The notes beneath the pieces were generated by a model, which was not told the origin of the DNA, did no database searches, and saw only the letters and a list, made by a program, of their open reading frames with translations. Source: Peptoniphilus phoceensis (lineage in GTDB: Bacteria; Bacillota; Clostridia; Tissierellales; Peptoniphilaceae). From it: a stretch of 64,000 bases of DNA. Every line of letters begins with the position of its first letter. Within the stretch, counting starts at the first letter, position 1. Position numbers and translations under genes: made by a program. Shown one piece after another: positions 4,390 to 58,314 of this stretch. The DNA lies in assembly GCF_001517665.2 (NCBI RefSeq), contig NZ_LN999809.1, positions 484,501-548,500 on the forward strand, read 5' to 3'.

Positions 4390-5698
4390 TGTGCATATAG
4401 TTACTTTAGGATGTTCTAAAAATGATGTAGACTCCTCTATGATGTACTCACTTTTAAATAAAGATAAATATAAAATGGTTAAAAGACCAAGTGACGCAGA
4501 TATTTTAATAGTTAATACTTGTGGATTTATTGATTCTGCAAAGGAAGAATCAATTGACACTATATTAGAATCAGTAGAATATAAGAAAAATGGAAGATGT
4601 AAAAAGGTTCTTTTGTCAGGATGTTTGGCACAAAGATATCCAGAAGAACTTATAAAAGAAATACCTGAAATTGATGGAATTATAGGAACAGGAAATATAA
4701 ATTATATAAACGAGCTCTTAGATAGAAGTCTAGAAGGAGATTTATTTATAAAAACAGATAATTTGAACTCAGCTTATATTGAAGGTGTAAGAAAAGATCA
4801 AGTTAATACTACTGAATATGTAAAAATATCTGAAGGTTGTAATAATAATTGCTCTTATTGTATAATACCTTCTCTTCGTGGAAAAAATAGATCTAGAACA
4901 ATTGAAGATATATATAGTGAAGTTGAATACTTAGTTGATAAAGGAGCAAGAGAAATCATTTTAATTGCTCAAAATACAACAGACTACGGTATTGATTTAT
5001 ACTCAAAGTATTCTTTATCTAATTTAATAAAGGAAATTTCTAAGATTAAAAATCTTAAATGGATAAGAGTTCTTTATCTTTACCCCGATCATTTTACAGA
5101 TGATTTAATTGAAGAGTTTAAAAATAATGATAAGCTAATTAAATATGTTGATATGCCTCTTCAACATATTTCAGATAATGTTTTAAAAAGAATGAATAGA
5201 AAAACAAGTAAAGACCATATAATAAAAACATTAAAAAGCCTTAGAGAGTCTGTAGATGGTATTGTAATAAGAACTACATTCATTGTTGGATTCCCAGGAG
5301 AAACAGAGGATGATTTCAAAGAATTAATTAATTTTATTAAAGACGTTAAGTTTGATAAGCTTGGAGTTTTTGAATATTCTAAAGAAGAAGGAACAAGTGC
5401 ATCCTTATTAGATAATCAGATTCCAGATGAAATTAAGGAAAATAGAAAAAATGAAATAATGTCTATTCAAAATGAGATCTCTAGTGAAGTTCTTTCAGAA
5501 AAGATAAATGAGAAATTAGAAATTTTAATAGAAGAGAAAATTGATGGAAATAATTATGTGGGAAGAACATACATGGATGCTCCAGAAATTGACGGAGTGA
5601 CTTATATAACTAGTGATAGAGATTTAAATATCGGTGATTTTGTAGATGTTAAAATAATAGATAGTCTTGATTATGATTTAGTAGGTGAATTGATATGA
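4382..5698 (+). CDS. rimO: Ribosomal protein S12 (aspartate) methylthiotransferase RimO
   Basis: A radical-SAM enzyme that adds a methylthio group to a conserved aspartate of ribosomal protein S12. The N-terminal UPF0004 domain carries three cysteines (GCSKN, NTCGF, SGCLA) for the second 4Fe-4S cluster. The radical-SAM C-x3-C-x2-C lies at residues 153-160 (GCNNNCSYC), and a TRAM domain occupies the end. The LGCSKN start and the PSLRGKNRSR segment distinguish it from MiaB, which is present separately at 25890-27290. I chose the ATG at 4382 after AGGTGATG; GTG at 4373 and ATG at 4376 are also in frame. It overlaps ftsK and, by the ATGA arrangement, pgsA, so translation is likely coupled. Confidence 0.95.
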   Translation: MNNVHIVTLGCSKNDVDSSMMYSLLNKDKYKMVKRPSDADILIVNTCGFIDSAKEESIDTILESVEYKKNGRCKKVLLSGCLAQRYPEELIKEIPEIDGIIGTGNINYINELLDRSLEGDLFIKTDNLNSAYIEGVRKDQVNTTEYVKISEGCNNNCSYCIIPSLRGKNRSRTIEDIYSEVEYLVDKGAREIILIAQNTTDYGIDLYSKYSLSNLIKEISKIKNLKWIRVLYLYPDHFTDDLIEEFKNNDKLIKYVDMPLQHISDNVLKRMNRKTSKDHIIKTLKSLRESVDGIVIRTTFIVGFPGETEDDFKELINFIKDVKFDKLGVFEYSKEEGTSASLLDNQIPDEIKENRKNEIMSIQNEISSEVLSEKINEKLEILIEEKIDGNNYVGRTYMDAPEIDGVTYITSDRDLNIGDFVDVKIIDSLDYDLVGELI

Positions 5699-6228
5699 AC
5701 ACTCCAAATAAGTTAACTCTTATGAGAACTATAATGGTTCCTATTTTTGTACTTTGTATGTATTTAGATTTTAATAATTCTAGAATTATTGCAACAGCTA
5801 TTTTTGCTATAGCTTCTTTTACTGATTTTCTTGATGGACATATTGCAAGAAGGGATAATTTAGTTACTAATTTTGGCAAATTTGCAGATCCACTAGCAGA
5901 TAAAATATTAGTTTGTTCAGCTATGATAATGTTAGTAAGCACTGGCGAGATGCCTGCATGGGCTGTTATAATCATAATAGCTAGAGAATTTACTATTACA
6001 GGATTTAGAATAATTGCAGCTTCAGAAAACATTACTATTGCAGCAAGTCCACTTGGTAAATTTAAAACAGTGACTCAGTTAATATCTAATATTTTACTTT
6101 TGAGTGGAATAAGTAGCCTAAGAAATTTTGGAATGGTAATATTTTATCTTGCAGTTATATTTACTGTTATTTCTGGTGCAGATTACCTTATAAAAAATAA
6201 AAAAGTTTTAGATTTAGAAAATATTTAA
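5695..6228 (+). CDS. pgsA: CDP-diacylglycerol-glycerol-3-phosphate 3-phosphatidyltransferase
   Basis: Integral membrane enzyme making phosphatidylglycerol phosphate from CDP-diacylglycerol and glycerol 3-phosphate, the committed step to phosphatidylglycerol and cardiolipin. The 177 residues carry the CDP-alcohol phosphatidyltransferase signature D-G-x2-A-R-x8-G-x3-D-x3-D (from LDGHIARRD through FGKFADPLADK) and several hydrophobic helices. It starts within the stop of rimO (ATGA overlap at 5695) and is followed by cinA and recA, the usual Firmicute order. Confidence 0.96.
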   Translation: MNTPNKLTLMRTIMVPIFVLCMYLDFNNSRIIATAIFAIASFTDFLDGHIARRDNLVTNFGKFADPLADKILVCSAMIMLVSTGEMPAWAVIIIIAREFTITGFRIIAASENITIAASPLGKFKTVTQLISNILLLSGISSLRNFGMVIFYLAVIFTVISGADYLIKNKKVLDLENI

Positions 6229-7486: not shown

Positions 7487-8542
7487 ATGAAAGACAATAA
7501 TTTAAGTAAGGAAAAACAAGAAGCTCTACACAATGTTATTTCAAAAATTGAAAAACAATATGGTGAAGGATCTGTTATGATTCTAGGTGATGACGTAAAG
7601 CTAGATATCGATTCTATTCCAACAGGATCACTAGCACTTGATATTGCTCTTGGCATTGGCGGTATACCTAAAGGAAGAATTATAGAAATTTATGGACCTG
7701 AATCTTCAGGCAAGACAACATTAGCTCTTCATATGTTAGCTGAAGCCCAAAAAATTGGAGGTACGGGAGCTTTTGTCGATGCAGAGCACGCACTTGATGC
7801 TGGTTACGCAAAAAACTTAGGTGTTGATATTGAAAACTTAATTATTTCACAACCTGATACTGGTGAACAAGCTCTAGAAATAACAGAGGCTTTGGTTAGA
7901 TCTAATGCAGTAGATTTAATTATAATTGACTCTGTTGCAGCTCTTGTTCCTAAAGCTGAAATAGATGGTGATATGGGTGCTGCACAAATTGGTCTTCAAG
8001 CTAGGTTAATGTCACAAGCCTTAAGAAAGTTAACAGGTGCAATTAATAAATCAAAGTGCACTGTTGTATTTATTAATCAACTTAGAGAAAAAGTTGGAAT
8101 TATGTTTGGTAATCCTGAAACAACAACAGGAGGTAGGGCGCTTAAATTTTATTCTTCAGTAAGACTTGATATAAGAAAATCTGAAAATATAAAAAAAGGT
8201 GACGAAATTATTGGTAATAGAGTAAGAGTTAAGGTTGTTAAAAATAAAATCGCTCCACCTTTTAGACAAGCAGAATTTGACATTATGTATGGAAAAGGCA
8301 TATCAAGTGTAGGAAATATTCTCGATGTAGCTGCTGAAGCTGATATTGTTAAAAAAGCTGGTGCTTGGTATTCTTATGGTGAAGAAAGACTTGGACAAGG
8401 TAGAGAAAATGCTAAAGAATATTTAGAAAACAATGAAGATTTATTAAAAGAAATTGAACACAAGGTAAGAGTTTACTATAACTTAATAGAAGATGACGAA
8501 TCTACAGAAGAAAATATAGAAGAAAGTCCAAAAGCTGATTAA
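7487..8542 (+). CDS. recA: Recombinase RecA
   Basis: ATP-dependent strand-exchange protein and co-protease for LexA. The 351 residues show Walker A (GPESSGKTT, about 66-74), the [15 protein letters not shown] segment, Walker [17 protein letters not shown], the L1/L2 DNA loops and the acidic C-terminal tail ([12 protein letters not shown]). It is separated from cinA by only 2 bases. No LexA-box-like promoter was seen immediately upstream; the only one could lie inside cinA or further up. The following gene is an Mre11-like nuclease 17 bases away, where Firmicutes often have rny or recX. Confidence 0.99.
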
Positions 8543-8559
8543 AAACAAGGTGTGATTTT

Positions 8560-9537
8560 TTGAAATTACTTTACTTAACAGACACCCATATAAGAGGAAC
8601 TAGTCCTAAAAATAGACTAGATGATTATTATGAAAGCTTAAAAGAAAAATTAAAAGAAATTTCAAATATTATTCGTGAAGAAAAAGTTGACTATGTCTTA
8701 CATGGAGGAGATTTATTTGATCGTCCTGATGTTTCGGTTAGTATTGTTTCTGATTTTGCAAAAATTTTTCAAGACTTTGGTGTGCCTATATATATAATAA
8801 GCGGAAATCATGATATTTTTGGACATAATCCTGATACTTTAGATAGGACTATGTTAGGTTTATTGTGTAATCTTGGCATAATGAATTTAGTTAATTATAA
8901 GAAAATAATATTAGAAAAAGATATAAAAGTACAATTGACAGGTTCACCATATATTTATTCCATGGACGAAGCATCAAACAAAGAAAATTATATTATAAAC
9001 GAAGTTGATGAGACTTGTAAGTACGCAATCCATATGACACATGGTTTTTTAATTGATAAGCCATTTTTAAAAGAAGTACCTCATACTATTATAGATGATA
9101 TTAGAAATACTAAGGCAGATATAACTTTAGCTGGTCACTATCACTTTGGTTTTAAAACTGTAGAGCTAGATAATAAATATTTTATAAATCCTGGAGCTTT
9201 AATGAGAATTTCTAATTCAAAGATAGAAATAAAAAGAAAACCAAAGGTTAATATTATTACATTAGGAAATGATATTAAAATAGAAGACAGGTTTTTAAAA
9301 TGCGCAAAAGCAGGAGAAGTTGTTTTAGATAGATCTGAAATGGAAAGACATAAATTTAAGGGTATTAAAATGGCAGAATTTAAGGAAAGTATTGATGCTT
9401 CAGCTAATTATAAAAGTTTAGATATTTTTGATTTACTTTTAAAAATTTCTAAGAGCGAAAAAATATCTGAAGATATAAAAAAAGAAGCTCTAAAAAGAGT
9501 TGAAGAAGCACAAATTAATGGAGTTGAATATAAATGA
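8560..9537 (+). CDS. Mre11/SbcD-like metallophosphoesterase (DNA repair exonuclease family)
   Basis: A 325-residue calcineurin-type phosphoesterase with the five nuclease motifs in order: DTH at residues 8-10, GGDLFDR at 49-55, GNHD at 82-85, a single-His MTHGF and GHYHFG. These bind two Mn ions in Mre11/SbcD. The start is TTG at 8560 after AAGGTGTGATTTTT, a leader almost identical to the one before the ATPase C-half at 11224. The stop overlaps the start of the next gene by 4 bases (ATGA), so the two are coupled. Its partner is the divided Rad50-like ATPase encoded by the next three frames. It is shorter than SbcD (about 380-400) and more like phage gp47-type nucleases, so I do not give it the name sbcD. 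Confidence 0.85.
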   Translation: MKLLYLTDTHIRGTSPKNRLDDYYESLKEKLKEISNIIREEKVDYVLHGGDLFDRPDVSVSIVSDFAKIFQDFGVPIYIISGNHDIFGHNPDTLDRTMLGLLCNLGIMNLVNYKKIILEKDIKVQLTGSPYIYSMDEASNKENYIINEVDETCKYAIHMTHGFLIDKPFLKEVPHTIIDDIRNTKADITLAGHYHFGFKTVELDNKYFINPGALMRISNSKIEIKRKPKVNIITLGNDIKIEDRFLKCAKAGEVVLDRSEMERHKFKGIKMAEFKESIDASANYKSLDIFDLLLKISKSEKISEDIKKEALKRVEEAQINGVEYK

Positions 9538-10985
9538 TATATATAAAAAATGTTGAACTTCATAATTTTCAATCTCATAATTATACAGAAATTGAATTTG
9601 ACCGAGGATTAAATGTTATCCTCGGTAATTCTGACGCAGGAAAAACTGCAATACTTAGAGCAATAAAATGGGCTCTATATAATGAACCTAAGGGAGATTA
9701 TTTTATTAGGCAAGGAGAAAAAGAAGTTTCTGTAAAAGTTACCTTTTCAAATGGTGTTGTTGTAGAGAGATCTAGAACTCCTTCCAAAAATTCCTACTAT
9801 CTTATGACAGCTGAAGGTGAAGAGATGAGATTCGAAGGATTTGGTCTAGATGTACCTAAAGAAATAAGAGATGCAACTAATATGTATAAAGTTTCTCTTG
9901 ATAATTCTAACAATAAAAGTATTTTAAATATAGCAGAACAACTTGATGGACCATTTTTGTTAAATGAACAGGCTTCTTTAAGGGCTTCTGCAATTGGTCG
10001 ATTAATTGGAGTAAACTACGTTGATGATGCTTTAAGAAATGTTGTAAGAGATAATAAAAGGTTGAGTCAAGAAATTGATACTTTAAAAAAAAGTAGGGAA
10101 GATTACAAAAATCAACTCAAAGAGTTTGAGTATATAGATGATTATAAAAATCGTTTTGAGAAAATATCTGCTATTCGAAATAAAATCGAAAATCTTCAGC
10201 ATAAACTTGATTTGGCTTCAAAATTAAAAGATGATTATGAAAAAATTGATAATGCTATTCTTGAAACAAATAATTTAGTTTTAAAATTTAAAGATCTAGA
10301 TAAAATTGAAAATATACTTCCAAAATTAGAAAATTATTTAATTAAAAAAAATAGTTTTGAAAATTACCAAAATAGATTGTTAAAGACAGCTAAAGAAATA
10401 GATTTAATGAATCTTAACTTAGATAAGTTAAAGAATATTAATAATTTGTCTGAAAAGACAAAAGTAATTGAAGTAAAAGAAGCTAAATTAAAAAATTATC
10501 TGAGAATTGAAGAGAAGTATAAAATTAATTTTTCACAAATAAATGAATTACTTTTAAATTTAGATAAATTTAGAAATAATGACCAAATCGAAAGCATAAT
10601 TAAAGATCTTGAACAAAATATTAATTTTTATAATAAACTTTCATCTTCATACATAGCATTAAATAAAATATTATCAAATTTAAAAATAGGAAAGGACTAT
10701 ATAAAGAAATTTGATAATAATAAAAATATATCTGATATTTTCAAGAATTTACAGTCAAAGCTAATTCAATTAAATAAACTAAAAGAATTGAATATTAAGT
10801 ATTGCGATCTAAATAATAATATAAAATATGAAGAAAATGAAATAGAAAAAACTATTCAAGACATAAAGAATTATACAGATTCCTATGAAAAGACTATTCT
10901 TGAATTAGGTGTTTGCCCATTTTGTTACAGTGAAATTAATAGTCAGTCTATTGAGCATATAAAATACCATTTAAGGAATGATTAA
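9534..10985 (+). CDS. Rad50/SMC-like ATPase, N-terminal half ending in a CPxC...HxxxH motif
   Basis: 483 residues carrying only the N-terminal half of a Rad50-type ATPase: an FQSH segment, Walker A GNSDAGKT (31-38), a Q-loop region near 145-155, then long Lys/Glu/Asn-rich coiled coil from about 170 to 455. The signature motif and Walker B are absent; they lie in the frame at 11224-11874. The protein ends at C461-P-F-C464 followed by H475 and H479, i.e. C-x2-C-x10-H-x3-H, just where Rad50 would have its zinc hook. In Rad50 and SbcC both halves are in one chain. Coupling to the upstream nuclease by a 4-base overlap supports a nuclease-ATPase complex. Whether the tail dimerises like a hook or folds as a closed zinc finger is unknown. 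Confidence 0.8.
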   Translation: MIYIKNVELHNFQSHNYTEIEFDRGLNVILGNSDAGKTAILRAIKWALYNEPKGDYFIRQGEKEVSVKVTFSNGVVVERSRTPSKNSYYLMTAEGEEMRFEGFGLDVPKEIRDATNMYKVSLDNSNNKSILNIAEQLDGPFLLNEQASLRASAIGRLIGVNYVDDALRNVVRDNKRLSQEIDTLKKSREDYKNQLKEFEYIDDYKNRFEKISAIRNKIENLQHKLDLASKLKDDYEKIDNAILETNNLVLKFKDLDKIENILPKLENYLIKKNSFENYQNRLLKTAKEIDLMNLNLDKLKNINNLSEKTKVIEVKEAKLKNYLRIEEKYKINFSQINELLLNLDKFRNNDQIESIIKDLEQNINFYNKLSSSYIALNKILSNLKIGKDYIKKFDNNKNISDIFKNLQSKLIQLNKLKELNIKYCDLNNNIKYEENEIEKTIQDIKNYTDSYEKTILELGVCPFCYSEINSQSIEHIKYHLRND

Positions 10986-11219
10986 ATGAATTACGAAGAA
11001 AATTTAAAAAATTTAAAAGAACAACTTGATAAACTTAAAAATATGAAATACAAGTCTGAAGCCAGACTTGAACAATTAAATGCACAAAAAAAAGAAATAC
11101 TAAATGAAATTGAAGATTTAGGTATAAAACCAGAGGAATTAGAAAGTGAAATTTCTAAATTAAAAAATGAAATAGATAGTCTATTTAATGAAGCAAATGA
11201 TTTAATGCCAAGGTTGTGA
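10986..11219 (+). CDS. Small coiled-coil protein between the two halves of the Rad50-like ATPase
   Basis: 77 residues, almost entirely predicted coiled coil (Leu/Lys/Glu heptads), broken by LGIKPEELESEI around residues 40-51 and ending in LMPRL. I do not recognise a named family. It begins at the base after the TAA stop of the N-terminal half (TAAATG) and is in the same frame; AAGGA about 10 bases upstream of its ATG gives it its own ribosome-binding site. It ends 4 bases before the C-terminal half. By position it could supply part of the ascending coil that the short C-half lacks, or act as a clamp. That is inference. Confidence 0.6.
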   Translation: MNYEENLKNLKEQLDKLKNMKYKSEARLEQLNAQKKEILNEIEDLGIKPEELESEISKLKNEIDSLFNEANDLMPRL

Positions 11220-11223
11220 TTTT

Positions 11224-11874
11224 TTGGAACTAAAAGATTTAGATAACAAACTCTCAGAATTAAATAATAAAATTTTAAATGATGAGGGAAAAGTTGAAAT
11301 ATTAAAGGATCAGCTTGATAAAGTTGAGCTCAAATTAAGCGACAAGGAGAAATACAGCGATATCTTAACTCAGGTGTCTATTCTATTTCAAAAAACGTCT
11401 GAATTCGCTAGAGAACAATCTAAACGACAAATTGAAGATACTGTGACCAAATGTCTTCAATTTATACTAGAAACTGATATAGAATTTCTAATTGAATTAT
11501 CTGAATCTAGATCTGTGCCTGTTGCAGAATTTTTTGTTCAATCTAATTATCCAGAAGGATATAGCATAAAAACAAAACCAGAAATTGCTCGTGGTGGTGG
11601 AGTTGTCGATATAATTTCTCTAGCACTTAGAATTGCATTCTTGCAACAAAATCAGCCTTTATTATCAGGTCCATTAATCCTTGATGAACCAGGAAAACAT
11701 GTTAGCAATGATTATATTTTTAATTTAGGAGAATTTTTAAAAAGGTCTTCTGGAATTTTTAATCGACAAATTATCATGGTTACACATAATCCTCATTTGT
11801 CACAAATTTCTGACAAAGCATTTCAAGTTTCAAACAAAAGGGGAATAAGTGAAGTAAGTGTTTACGAGCATTAA
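11224..11874 (+). CDS. Rad50/SMC-like ATPase, C-terminal half
   Basis: 216 residues: about 75 residues of coiled coil, then the C-terminal lobe of an ABC/SMC-type ATPase with signature-like ARGGGVVDIIS (122-132), Walker B plus catalytic glutamate LILDEPG (151-157) and the switch histidine MVTHNP (185-190). There is no Walker A; that is in the protein encoded at 9534-10985, so the two must assemble to hydrolyse ATP. The start is TTG at 11224 with AAGG 10 bases upstream. The N-half coil is about 280 residues against about 75 here, an asymmetry not seen in ordinary Rad50. This is the last gene of the operon. Confidence 0.8.
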   Translation: MELKDLDNKLSELNNKILNDEGKVEILKDQLDKVELKLSDKEKYSDILTQVSILFQKTSEFAREQSKRQIEDTVTKCLQFILETDIEFLIELSESRSVPVAEFFVQSNYPEGYSIKTKPEIARGGGVVDIISLALRIAFLQQNQPLLSGPLILDEPGKHVSNDYIFNLGEFLKRSSGIFNRQIIMVTHNPHLSQISDKAFQVSNKRGISEVSVYEH

Positions 11875-53834: not shown

Positions 53835-54368
53835 CTATTTTTTTAAAGATTTTCTAAGTTCATCAATTGACATTGTCGAAACATGTTCTCTATCCACATC
53901 AAGTTTATCTACAAGATTATATATCTCTTCCATACTTTGAGCTTCTATTTCAACATAAGGCTTTGGATAAGTAAATTTATCCCAAGTATCAATATCAATT
54001 ATAAAATTCTTATAAGAATATTTTCTTCTATTTTTATAACCAGTGTGATAAATATCATATCCCAAACACTTTAGAATATTAATTAAATCTTCTTCACTAC
54101 TTATTTCAGTTGTGTGTTCTATATTGTCTCTAACTTTAAAATCAGAAATATTTTCCTTAAATGTAAAATATTTTTTCTCACCTTCAAGTGACTTAGTTAT
54201 CCTAATTCTTAAATAACCTTTCTTTTTATATATTTTATGAGCAGTAGAATTTACTGTAATATTTGTCTGATCTTCTTCCTTAATAAAAACTCCACCAAGT
54301 TTTAATAATTTATTTTCAAAATCTTCTATATCAATATCAAGAAGCTTAACTTCAATTTCTCTTTCCAT
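53835..54368 (-). CDS. CYTH-domain protein (class IV adenylate cyclase / triphosphatase-like)
   Basis: 177 residues opening with EREIEVKLL, the E-x-E-x-K signature that binds divalent metal and triphosphate in the CYTH tunnel fold, followed by alternating charged strands (YLRIRITKS, KYFTFKE, IDIDTWDKF, PYVEIEAQS). The family includes thiamine triphosphatases, inorganic triphosphatases and CyaB cyclases; the substrate cannot be chosen from sequence. It starts one base inside the stop of the upstream phosphoesterase, behind GAGGAGG. Confidence 0.85.
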   Translation of the reverse strand: MEREIEVKLLDIDIEDFENKLLKLGGVFIKEEDQTNITVNSTAHKIYKKKGYLRIRITKSLEGEKKYFTFKENISDFKVRDNIEHTTEISSEEDLINILKCLGYDIYHTGYKNRRKYSYKNFIIDIDTWDKFTYPKPYVEIEAQSMEEIYNLVDKLDVDREHVSTMSIDELRKSLKK

Positions 54369-55051
54369 TAGTCCTCCTCAAGTTTCTTTAACTTAAAATT
54401 CAAAAAATCACTTGCTACAAAATGATAATCAACGCCCATCAAATCACCTTCAAAGGAATATTTGTGACCCTTACCATGAAGATGGCCGTATACGCACTTT
54501 TCTACCTTGTAATCTGCAAGAGTTTGTGAAAATTCATTTACTCCCAAATCCTGATTAAAGGGTGGATAATGTATCATTGCTATTATTTTTTTATTAACAC
54601 ATGTATCTAAAGAATTTTTTAATCTTTGAACTTCTCTTAAATAAATTTTTTCATCGTCTTCTGAAAATTCAAAGGAATCTCGTGATGCCCAGCCTCTTGT
54701 ACCACAAATTGAATAGTCTTTATATTCAAAAGAATTGTTGTGAAGAAAATGTATGCTCTTAAAATCTAAATTATTCATCTTGTTTAAAGAAGACCACCAA
54801 TAATCGTGATTGCCCTTAGAAATTATCTTTATTCCTGGGAGTTCATCTATCCTTTTTAAATCAAAAGCAGCAGTCCCAAGTTTAAGGGCCCAAGAAATAT
54901 CTCCTGGCAATAGAACAAGATCATCTTCTTTAACTACTTCCCTCCAATTTTCAATTATTTTTTCTTCGTGATTTTCCCAATTATCACCAAAAATATTCAT
55001 GGGTTTCTCTTCTGTATAATCGAAGTGAAGATCTCCAATTGCGAATATCAT
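54368..55051 (-). CDS. Calcineurin-type metallophosphoesterase
   Basis: About 227 residues with IGDLHFD, LLPGDISWA, KGNHDYWW, MIHYPP and VYGHLHG, the complete dimetal phosphoesterase set. The family member is of the small stand-alone type; the substrate is unknown. The start chosen is ATG at 55051 after GAGGTGTTT; GTG at 55057 is in frame. It lies between yhaN-like and CYTH genes, overlapping the latter by one base. Confidence 0.88.
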   Translation of the reverse strand: MIFAIGDLHFDYTEEKPMNIFGDNWENHEEKIIENWREVVKEDDLVLLPGDISWALKLGTAAFDLKRIDELPGIKIISKGNHDYWWSSLNKMNNLDFKSIHFLHNNSFEYKDYSICGTRGWASRDSFEFSEDDEKIYLREVQRLKNSLDTCVNKKIIAMIHYPPFNQDLGVNEFSQTLADYKVEKCVYGHLHGKGHKYSFEGDLMGVDYHFVASDFLNFKLKKLEED

Positions 55052-55058
55052 AAACACC

Positions 55059-57305
55059 TCAAAGTTTTATTAATTTATATGTCATATTATTTTTATCTAA
55101 AATATCTTTTTCTCTATTTGAACTTGCAAATATTAGAACTTGTTCTTCATCTTGCAAAATTTCCAATGTGTTTTTAAGTCTATCATCGTCATAAGAATCA
55201 AAATGACTATCAAGCACAATCGGAATTTTTTTATCGGTTATTATTTTTGAAACGGCCAATCTAAAAGCAAGATAAATTTGATCTAGTGTTCCAATACTTA
55301 AACTTTCCAAATCAATATAATCACTTATGCTTTTATCATAAACCCTAATAGCTAAACTGTCATCTATTAATATCTCACTGTACTTATTGTCTGTAATTAA
55401 GCTTAGATAATTTGAAATTTCATTTTTCAAAATAGGAAGGGTACTTCTTCTTTTGGATTTCATAAAATTTTCAATTTTTTCTATTGAAATCTCCAGTAAT
55501 TTCTTTCTATAATCAAGTTCTTCTAGTTTTCTATTTAATTCAAAAGTTTTCTCTTCCAAAATTCTTAATTTTTCTAATGAATCTTCTAATGTTCTTAGAC
55601 TTCCTTCTAAATTAGAAATTTCTCTTTTTGTTGTAGAAATATCTTTTGATATCTCTTCAATTGAACTCTTCTTATAAATCTCACCACTTAGGCTTTCTTT
55701 TTCAAGTTCATCTATTCTATATCTGTATTCACTTGATCTATCATCACTCTTATTTCTTTTATCATGAAAAACTTCTTTTAAATCTTTTATATTTTTTACC
55801 TTATATTTTTCAAAGATTATTTCAAGTTCTCTCTCATAATCAATGATTTTTTTCTTAATTTCTTCTATTTCAAATAAGTTTTTTTCTTTAAGCTGGTCAT
55901 TGTACTCATTTTTAGATTTATTTTTTAAGTTTTCTTCTACCTTTAAATCCAAAATTTGTCCAAGCTCTCTTGAATCTTTTGCATTGTATTTTAATAGAAT
56001 ATCTTTGATCTCTTTATCAAACTCTTTTTTTATAAAAGTTTTATCTCTTGATTTCTTTTTAAAATCATTGAGCTTTCTATTTAATCTCTCTAATAGATCC
56101 TTATTTTCCCTAAATTTTACAAACCTAAAATAAGAATAAGTAAAAAATAAGACAGAAAAAATGGAAATAAAATATTTTTTATAATGGATTGATGCAATTA
56201 TAATTCCAATAGCTATAATAAAGCTTGAAATAAATTTTATGAGATACTTCATTATCTCTATATTAAGACTTTTTATATCCCTGGAAATAATTTCTATTTC
56301 TTTTGAAAAATTATTTTCATTTAATACAAAAAGTTCCCTGTTTATCTCCTTATATCTCTTATAATCATTTTCCAAATCTTTGTCTACTTCAAACTTTTCT
56401 CCTTCTAATGATATCAAATCATCAAGTTTACTAGAATAAATTCCCAAAGATTTATTTAACTCAATAGCTTCTTCAAGATCTGTTAAATTGTATTTATTTT
56501 CATTAGAATTATTATTTTCAATTTCATTTAATTCTTTTCTTAAATTCTCTAATTCGAAAATTTTTCTACCTCGAAGCTTATCTTCTAAGTCCTTTAACTT
56601 TTCCTTTGCTTTTTTATATTCATCAGTAGACTTATTATAAGAATCTTTTAGGCTTATATAGTTTATTTTCTCAAGAGAAATTTTATCTAATTCTTCTGTG
56701 AGTCTTCCTATTTCAGAAGTCTTTCTTCTTTTGTTTCCCAGTTTATAGAGATCATCATTCATTTTGTCGACGACTTTATTTAAATCAATATTTTCATCTT
56801 CCGAAACAGAAAAATTATCGATTCTATTTTTTAACTCTTCTCCAGCTTCATTTTCTATTTGGCTTAATCTTTGAGAAATAAAAAAAGAAGACTTATAAAT
56901 TTTTCTATTTATATCAAAAAAAAGTATGCCAGGTTGAGGAATTCTAGAATTTAAATAATTTTTATCGTCAAAGGAAAAGTCTTCACCAGTTTCAATATTC
57001 ACTATAGAAATTTCGTCTTTATCAAAATCTCGGCTTATTCTATATTCCTTATCTTCATCTTTAAGGATAATATAACCCTTATATAAATTAGATCCCCAAG
57101 GTCTTGATTTCTCAAAAAGGTCATCTCTTATCTTTCTTGCCAAAGAGTCTTTGCTAAATCCATAAAAAATACCATCTATAAAATTAACAATAGTGGATTT
57201 TCCCCTTTCATTTTCACCAAAAATTAAATTTATTCCTCTGTGAAGCTCAATTGTTTTATTTTCAAACTTAGCAAAATTTAAAAGTCCTAATTCTTCAAAT
57301 ATCAT
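55059..57305 (-). CDS. yhaN: YhaN-like Rad50/SMC-family ATPase with central membrane segment
   Basis: About 748 residues: N-terminal ATPase lobe with Walker A GENERGKST (30-38), coiled coil, then two hydrophobic helices near 355-400 (SSFIIAIGIIIASI and FISIFSVLFFTYSYF), more coiled coil, and the C-terminal lobe with signature LSIGTLDQIYLAF (about 665) and Walker B IPIVLDSHFDSYDDDRL (about 693). After the Walker B Asp stands Ser where relatives have a second acidic residue. Hydrophobic centre and pairing with yhaO match the YhaN family. The ATG at 57305 after TTGGAG is better than earlier in-frame starts inside yhaO. Confidence 0.85.
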   Translation of the reverse strand: MIFEELGLLNFAKFENKTIELHRGINLIFGENERGKSTIVNFIDGIFYGFSKDSLARKIRDDLFEKSRPWGSNLYKGYIILKDEDKEYRISRDFDKDEISIVNIETGEDFSFDDKNYLNSRIPQPGILFFDINRKIYKSSFFISQRLSQIENEAGEELKNRIDNFSVSEDENIDLNKVVDKMNDDLYKLGNKRRKTSEIGRLTEELDKISLEKINYISLKDSYNKSTDEYKKAKEKLKDLEDKLRGRKIFELENLRKELNEIENNNSNENKYNLTDLEEAIELNKSLGIYSSKLDDLISLEGEKFEVDKDLENDYKRYKEINRELFVLNENNFSKEIEIISRDIKSLNIEIMKYLIKFISSFIIAIGIIIASIHYKKYFISIFSVLFFTYSYFRFVKFRENKDLLERLNRKLNDFKKKSRDKTFIKKEFDKEIKDILLKYNAKDSRELGQILDLKVEENLKNKSKNEYNDQLKEKNLFEIEEIKKKIIDYERELEIIFEKYKVKNIKDLKEVFHDKRNKSDDRSSEYRYRIDELEKESLSGEIYKKSSIEEISKDISTTKREISNLEGSLRTLEDSLEKLRILEEKTFELNRKLEELDYRKKLLEISIEKIENFMKSKRRSTLPILKNEISNYLSLITDNKYSEILIDDSLAIRVYDKSISDYIDLESLSIGTLDQIYLAFRLAVSKIITDKKIPIVLDSHFDSYDDDRLKNTLEILQDEEQVLIFASSNREKDILDKNNMTYKLIKL

Positions 57306-58314
57306 AATATTGCTCCAAAATATACTTTTTTGACAATTCTCTAGCATCACTTTCTATTTGGCTATTTGAAAAATTCCCTAAAAGATCTAATATAAATTCA
57401 TCTTTGATCTTAATTTCAGAATCATCTTCACTAATATTATTTATAATTTCAAAATAGAAAACAGATAAATTTTCTCTTAGAAAATTTTCTAAATCCAGTG
57501 AGTGCTTATTATTTCCAGATAAATTTATTCTGTATAAATTATTCTTTTCAATTTTCTCTTGTATTAGTGATAAAATTTCAGAAAATGTCATTTCATTAGT
57601 AACTTTTATCTCTAAACTTATAAATTCTCTCTTAGAAAAATTTTTAAATTCAATAATCTTTTTATTATCATCTAAAAATATAATTCCTCTTTTTCCTTTG
57701 TCTTTAAAAGAAAGTGGAATTAAAGATCCTGAATAATAAGTGTTTTCTAATACTTTTTCTCTTTTATGAATATGACCAAGTGCCACATAATTAAATTTTT
57801 TAAGGAATTCTATATCTAAAGGCAAGTATCTTTCGTCTTTTAAATCTGAATGAAATAATCCTATATTTATAAATTTTTCATCTAAATCTAATTCTTTAAA
57901 ATCCCTTTTAAAAGAATAATTGTCATAAGATATACCATATATTCTTGTATTTAGTTCACTCAGTTCAAAATAGTCTAGTTCATTTTTGAAAAAATATAAA
58001 TTATCTGGTAATTCTACTTTTAAAAATAGATTATCTCCTGAAAGATAATCATGATTTCCAAAGGCAAGAAAAACTTTTGCTCTTACACATTTAATTAAGT
58101 CCAAAAATCTATTCAAATCTTTCAAATTAAAAAATTCTCTTTCGAATAAATCTCCAGCAATCAAAATAATATCTGCGTCAACTTCATTTGAAAAATCAAA
58201 AAGTTCGCCCAAGGCTCTCCATCCATCTTCCAACAGCTTATTTGAAACTTCAAGTGGAAGACTGCCCTTATAAAATTTTTTTAAATGCAAATCACCAGTG
58301 TGAATTATTTTCAT
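57295..58314 (-). CDS. yhaO: YhaO-like DNA repair exonuclease (Mre11/SbcD family)
   Basis: 339-residue calcineurin-type nuclease with TGDLHL, LIAGDLFER, FGNHDYL, LFHSD and LGHIHKRE. The C-terminal 100 residues form the small accessory domain that contacts the ATPase partner. It precedes and overlaps the yhaN-like gene by 11 bases, the usual YhaO-YhaN pairing. It is the second Mre11-type nuclease in the window; the other follows recA. A GGTGATAAG site precedes the ATG. Confidence 0.87.
   Translation of the reverse strand: MKIIHTGDLHLKKFYKGSLPLEVSNKLLEDGWRALGELFDFSNEVDADIILIAGDLFEREFFNLKDLNRFLDLIKCVRAKVFLAFGNHDYLSGDNLFLKVELPDNLYFFKNELDYFELSELNTRIYGISYDNYSFKRDFKELDLDEKFINIGLFHSDLKDERYLPLDIEFLKKFNYVALGHIHKREKVLENTYYSGSLIPLSFKDKGKRGIIFLDDNKKIIEFKNFSKREFISLEIKVTNEMTFSEILSLIQEKIEKNNLYRINLSGNNKHSLDLENFLRENLSVFYFEIINNISEDDSEIKIKDEFILDLLGNFSNSQIESDARELSKKYILEQYYDI

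Follow-up and report, generated by a model that had tools for sequence, protein, structure and literature searches.

A stretch of 64,000 nucleotides from the Peptoniphilus phoceensis genome (contig NZ_LN999809.1, positions 484,501 to 548,500 of the forward strand; hereafter the window) was found to carry, behind recA, four consecutive genes that probably encode an Mre11–Rad50 complex of the SbcD–SbcC type for processing DNA ends, with Rad50 naturally made as separate chains. The genes are called here D (Mre11/SbcD-like nuclease), N (N-terminal Rad50 lobe with arm and hook), M (a small protein) and C (C-terminal Rad50 lobe), and their coordinates are collected in Table 1. A reading made from the sequence alone (the sequence-only reading) had placed a Rad50-like ATPase on three genes at 9534..11874, with the Walker A lobe and the signature/Walker B lobe on separate genes, a small gene between them and an Mre11-like nuclease coupled to them behind recA; open reading frames (ORFs) and motifs at these positions bear out each of these points. 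That reading had passed over the CPFC hook, the 47-residue repeats of the arm, the RGGGV signature and the scarcity of SbcC.

N matched AAA_23 above its cut-off (6e-22) and the phage family phrog_16465 (2.7e-70), and a search of its profile against the PDB returned archaeal Rad50 as the best match (1.2e-14). Both a Walker A lobe and a Q-loop are present; among 79 bacterial rows, residues G31, G36 and K37 of Walker A are kept in 77 and Q136 of the Q-loop in 76, the remaining rows being gapped. At the other end of the chain, 94 of the 96 N ORFs have a CPxC motif near their C-terminus (the two exceptions are N-terminal pieces of broken genes), and 77 of the 78 phage N ORFs have a C..C pair 8–34 residues before their end. 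Positions 414–479 match the solved Rad50 hook 1l8d of P. furiosus (4.3e-6). The motif is that of the CxxC zinc hook at the tip of a Rad50 arm, and zinc binding is predicted from it. Because N ends in this Rad50-type hook, with ∼20 residues beyond it, the cut in Rad50 is placed by the sequence just past the hook. That N ends in a C2H2 zinc finger was considered and rejected for the family as a whole: of the 94 ORFs with CPxC, only 42 have an H-spaced pair after it.

The conserved columns of N are those of the lobe and the hook, and the arm between them is built of 47-residue repeats. Autocorrelation of the profile over residues 195–455 gave 0.331 at lag 47 and 0.286 at lag 94, with 0.118 as the next best value, and two groups of phage N aligned separately (35 and 29 sequences) also peaked at 47. 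In a test on single sequences, for which three stretches were tried per sequence, the best lag was 47 or 94 for 64 of the 76 split N proteins and for none of six canonical SbcC proteins. The hook is found at position 457–464 in 71 of 77 loci, at 409–413 (about one unit less) in four, and at 359 and 388 in two viral loci; in L127, L131 and L134 the profile match of N falls into two pieces that overlap, shifted by about one unit, and about one repeat unit is skipped in the match of L132. An AlphaFold2 (AF2) model of N and M joined through the read stop codon (predicted template modeling score, pTM, 0.34) has helices at 162–196, 199–251, 255–394 and 399–458, followed by the hook and M. Its helix breaks at 252–254 and 395–398 lie about three repeats apart in the same repeat phase, and the equivalent places near 300 and 347 were modeled as continuous helix. 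The arm of N thereby comes to ∼295 residues (helices 162–458), close to the earlier estimate of about 280. Since designed coiled coils also match the arm profile (8qae, 5.1e-8), its similarity is in part that of generic coil. When the repeats were stacked for coevolution analysis, the two strongest pairs (separation of at least 8) joined equivalent positions 47 apart, a result that repeat similarity alone can yield.

C matched family libraries only under curated cut-offs (best, NCBIfam Rad50_Sulf, 1.6e-9); its profile retrieved the archaeal Rad50 C-lobe 3qkr_B from the PDB (2.3e-14), and C matches phrog_15167 (7.4e-62). Walker B residues D154 and E155 and the H-loop His are each present in 80/80 bacterial rows, and the Asp, Glu and His in 90, 89 and 87 of 90 phage rows, respectively. 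In place of the ABC signature LSGGE/Q, C has RGGGV, with R123 in 76 and each G of GGG in all of the 80 bacterial rows; the 90 phage rows have S123 in 33, R123 in 31 and S124 in 5. Ungapped alignment to Rad50 puts the signature Ser opposite G124 and a one-residue shift puts it opposite R123, the register being ambiguous by one. The head-proximal coil of C was put by eye at ∼45–75 residues, of which the previously proposed ∼75 is the upper end. D, in turn, supplies the nuclease partner of Rad50 and SbcC: it carries the Mre11 motifs, scores above the cut-off for Pfam Metallophos (3.5e-13) and under it for NCBIfam sbcd (3.2e-10; 40.2 bits, cut-off 77.65), and keeps its eight catalytic positions in 74–76 of 76 bacterial rows.

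A genome scan returned 466 candidate stretches, 272 of which were relatives, and the best 80 bacterial loci were kept. The search for this gene order in relatives and phages, which the sequence-only reading had proposed as a check, found D, N, M and C in order with small gaps in 73/80 bacterial loci, and separate N and C genes in phages as well. The other seven comprise contig ends (L074, L079 and L097), broken D or N (L069, L110 and L122) and a degenerate extra copy (L055). Taxa among the 80 loci include Peptoniphilus, Anaerosphaera, Tissierella, Aedoeadaptatus, Caloramator, Thermosediminibacter, Tepidanaerobacter and Alkalicoccobacillus. Upstream of D, recA was present in all 75 loci that had D and enough sequence, within 271 nucleotides in 72 and at 742–813 nucleotides in three. 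D reads short in L103 and in L044 (P. timonensis JC401; 242 amino acids), both counted among the 73; in L044 the neighboring rqcH-like gene also matches in two pieces, as if the assembly were frameshifted. C of P. timonensis JC401 is 100% identical to that of the window, as is C of one genome of the same species, and the window's genome probably belongs to the species of JC401. Degenerate extra copies of C and its neighbors, possibly misassemblies, were seen in L055 (Peptoniphilus harei), on both strands of a small contig, and in G004:C31.

One continuous gene in close relatives, named beforehand as the observation that would speak against a natural split, was not found: C was present in 14/14 genomes of the genus, its best match lying in its own short frame each time, and the 21 strong matches among 291 genomes of the class were all in frames of ≤264 amino acids. 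Two weaker class matches (∼1e-13) lay in frames of 546 and 558 amino acids, and two of the nine genomes drawn there from the window's own family gave no C match. Among 299 genomes of the phylum, 48 were positive, with 50 of 51 C matches in frames of ≤282 amino acids, one of these frames starting at a contig end and one holding an internal stop. The ratio of nonsynonymous to synonymous divergence (dN/dS) against nine Peptoniphilus relatives was <0.45 for D, N, M and C; for D, M and C, 22 of the 27 values were <0.1. In these comparisons dS was near saturation and in one case saturated. Gene order and dN/dS both agree with the earlier view of a working machine rather than decay, and the products would probably work as an assembly. 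Recent gene disruption or sequencing error, to which the broken N or D ORFs of L069, L110 and L122 and the degenerate copy of L055 might point, is hardly credible because the order is conserved, the same division recurring in bacteria and phages, with dN/dS below 0.45 in every part.

The viral scan, made with the N alignment, gave 464 stretches, 442 of which were relatives, and 80 were kept. An N ORF was found in 78 of these phage loci and a separate C gene in 72; in none did N and C share an ORF. D is fused to N in three kept phage loci (L140, L142 and L163) and also in viral loci L009/L010; L140, probably phage 0305phi8-36, carries its C gene apart from the D–N ORF. The annotated example is Bacillus phage vB_BboS-125 (L124), in which an AP2-domain gene (5152–5724) lies between N and M and an unannotated D-like ORF lies downstream of C. 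The sole fused exception to the split that was observed, L126 (4152–6254, minus strand), is a 700-amino acid chain of D, N-lobe and C-lobe that lacks arm, hook and M. Its placement in the tree is unsure (long branch), and by eye it adjoins an AddB-like ORF. These natural fusions (D with N; D, N and C in L126) argue that D, N and C belong together, and L126 suggests that lobes and nuclease act as a unit there and that M is lost along with the arm. A single chain with two matching arms, as in Rad50 and SbcC, was not found among the phylum frames above, in the 78 phage N ORFs or in the armless L126. In a quick tree built from 33 bacterial and 38 viral C sequences (71 in all), four label changes were needed; bacterial copies G397 and G408, perhaps prophages, group among phages, and viral rows L009 and L140–L142 fall among bacteria with weak support.

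Canonical SbcC was scarce where the cassette was present. A search with TIGR00618 (E ≤ 1e-15, eight candidates scored per genome) found an SbcC long chain in 1/40 cassette genomes (2/40 with a weak partial match) vs 19/40 genomes without the cassette; the former were 40 of the 48 positive genomes and the latter the first in the list without a C match at 1e-20, not a random draw. No match at 1e-15 was obtained in the window's own genome. The lone SbcC-positive cassette genome was G397, whose C groups with phages. Because SbcC rarely co-occurs with the cassette and recA is linked to it, these data suggest that the cassette replaces SbcCD in end processing.

In the complex that we propose, the Walker A lobe would come from N, along with the arm and its zinc hook; the second ATPase lobe, with the coil next to the head, would come from C. 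M would add a short helical segment that probably continues right after the hook, and D would be the nuclease, bound at the base of the coils. ATP would clamp two N + C heads together, two hooks would share a zinc at the tip, and DNA ends would be held and trimmed for RecA, the cassette standing in for SbcCD in the bacteria that carry it.

Several observations weigh against this proposal. The sole structural model is that of N and M, with its pTM of 0.34. M was found by hidden Markov model (HMM) in 39 of the 72 phage loci with C and not in the other 33; a small ORF before C was rejected as evidence of M in these, since 26 of the 33 have one there and 22 also have one before N. Among 88 phage D rows, N83 is replaced by Gln in 26 and H193 by Asp in 44. 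None of the SbcC matches in the 80 genomes passed the family cut-off (in the positive control, 10 of 14 known genomes were detected, one over the cut-off), and the Fisher test of SbcC scarcity (p = 3e-6 for 1/40 or 2e-5 for 2/40) treats related genomes as independent. A conserved signature Ser is absent from the bacterial C rows in either register. The earlier claim of intact catalytic residues therefore stands for Walker A, the Q-loop, the Walker B Asp and Glu, the H-loop and the nuclease motifs of bacterial rows but not for the signature. In archaeal Rad50, a Ser to Arg change at the signature is disabling; given this and the missing Ser, the ATP switch of the split Rad50 may differ in detail. 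Finally, M and C together contribute ∼110–145 helical residues vs ∼295 in the arm of N (N and M from the AF2 model, C by eye), which is too little for a complete antiparallel return arm; the return strand from M and C would reach about half of the N arm at most, leaving the classic antiparallel arm incomplete.

M was detected by HMM in 83/98 loci and matches phrog_18563 (1e-5); its two modeled helices, of 42 and 25 residues (487–528 and 533–557 in the N + M model), correct its previous description as a small coiled-coil gene. A profile of the N–M junction follows the solved hook 1l8d through the hook and ∼16 residues of M (6.5e-4 over the full sequence and 0.0046 over the best stretch), with the stop codon read as Gly, so that the query itself placed M there, and with a designed coil scoring alike (8.2e-4). 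On this evidence M may resume the descending helix past the hook, and its loss together with arm and hook in L126 likewise speaks for a place in the arm. A tentative case can nevertheless be made that M lies outside the arm, as an independent third subunit or regulator bound to the head, to the tip of the hook or to the nuclease, in the manner of eukaryotic Nbs1. Conservation of M is similar to that of D and C and exceeds that of N as a whole, in which only lobe and hook hold conserved columns (dN in six of nine relatives, 0.08–0.10 for M vs 0.29–0.32 for N), and the length of M is unrelated to hook position (Spearman 0.03 over 77 loci; −0.21, p = 0.06, for M + C). A weak resemblance of M to msmeg_4306 in profile search (5y05, 2.8e-4) points the same way.

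It is also possible, if rather doubtful, that these are Rad50 arms with no full return strand, in which two N chains, one from each protomer, lie parallel and form a rod built from 47-residue modules, their hooks pinned C-terminally by one zinc, with M as a cap and the C-lobes as exchangeable subunits. Were this so, arm length would change by whole modules while M and C stayed unchanged.

An anti-phage or anti-plasmid system of the Lamassu kind, in place of housekeeping repair, we consider improbable. PADLOC LmuB does match N (5.3e-16), as might be expected for an SMC/Rad50-like ATPase, but no LmuA was among the matches listed for D, N, M and C (the best 25 for N and M); the site behind recA is fixed in distant bacteria, phages themselves carry the cassette, and SbcC is scarce where it is present. 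That programmed readthrough or frameshifting joins the pieces into a single chain is very improbable: in the window N and M share a frame and the stop codon of N directly adjoins the start of M, but among the 82 loci with N, M and C all placed, N and M are adjacent in the same frame in 28, about as expected by chance, and M and C in four, while spacing between the genes varies and each has its own start.

The Mre11–Rad50 complex proposed here resembles that of archaea and eukaryotes in its ATPase lobes, its CxxC hook and its Mre11 partner, and its best structural matches are to archaeal Rad50. Rad50 is otherwise one chain whose hook lies in the middle, between arms that match in length, whereas the cassette has three chains, a terminal hook, an N arm of 47-residue repeats and an RGGGV signature. 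The entries 1f2t and 1ii8, which are among the closest structures, list the N part as chain A and the C part as chain B. Bacterial SbcCD is likewise a nuclease with an ATPase and apparently fills the same niche, to judge from the rare co-occurrence in 80 genomes; in the six SbcC controls, by contrast, the hook lies at 526–586 of 1041–1123 residues, and neither 47 nor 94 is the best lag. PHROG families 16465, 18563 and 15167 (profile lengths 491, 77 and 211), which match N, M and C, are separate families labeled exonuclease, unknown function and ATPase. In the Mre11/Rad50 (SbcDC) fusions of Anaerostipes and phage 0305phi8-36, one of the P-loop segments of SbcC was not seen, according to a report whose passages on these proteins treat them as fusions and make no mention of a split Rad50 (PMC3175470). 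Among the matches listed from the open-access literature, none described a split Rad50.

The split Rad50 looks like an old and widespread natural version of a well-known machine, not a broken gene. Rad50 and SMC proteins are usually viewed as hairpins with both arm strands in one chain, and a natural split past the hook would show chain continuity to be dispensable. What the arm, the hook and each lobe do could then be tested on subunits that nature already supplies separately, and three loosely annotated phage families would become parts of one complex. The split would also offer an explanation for the phage fusion protein described in 2011 as being without one ATPase segment (PMC3175470).

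Table 1. Positions of the cassette genes, their motifs and recA in the window
Feature	Position	Strand	Basis
recA (operon neighbor immediately upstream of D)	7487..8542	+	ORF call
D, Mre11/SbcD-like metallophosphoesterase, 325 amino acids, TTG start	8560..9537	+	Pfam Metallophos 3.5e-13
N, Rad50 N-lobe, arm and terminal zinc hook (predicted), 483 amino acids	9534..10985	+	AAA_23 6e-22
Walker A GNSDAGKT, N residues 31–38	9624..9647	+	Conservation of G31, G36 and K37
Six 47-residue arm repeats, N residues 183–464	10080..10925	+	Profile autocorrelation
CPFC zinc-hook motif, N residues 461–464, closing the last repeat	10914..10925	+	CPxC conservation; 1l8d match
M, small two-helix protein, 77 amino acids	10986..11219	+	HMM; phrog_18563; AF2 model
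C, Rad50 C-lobe and short coil, 216 amino acids, TTG start	11224..11874	+	3qkr_B 2.3e-14; phrog_15167
Divergent signature ARGGGV, C residues 122–127	11587..11604	+	Alignment to Rad50 LSGGE
Walker B LILDEPG, C residues 151–157	11674..11694	+	Conservation of D154 and E155

The genes are tightly packed, D and N overlapping by four bases, N and M abutting, and M and C being four bases apart. An RBS-like (ribosome-binding site) purine stretch was seen by eye upstream of every start, in agreement with the earlier claim of an own binding site for each gene, and the TTG starts of D and C share a nearly identical leader (window 8548–8562 and 11210–11226). The window holds a second nuclease–ATPase pair, which we take to be of the YhaO/YhaN type (55059–58314); it differs from the cassette in its one-chain ATPase, which has a hydrophobic stretch and, by eye, no CxxC. 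The minus-strand region around it (54368–58314) encodes a phosphoesterase of 339 amino acids and the one-chain ATPase of 763 amino acids, plus a third phosphoesterase.

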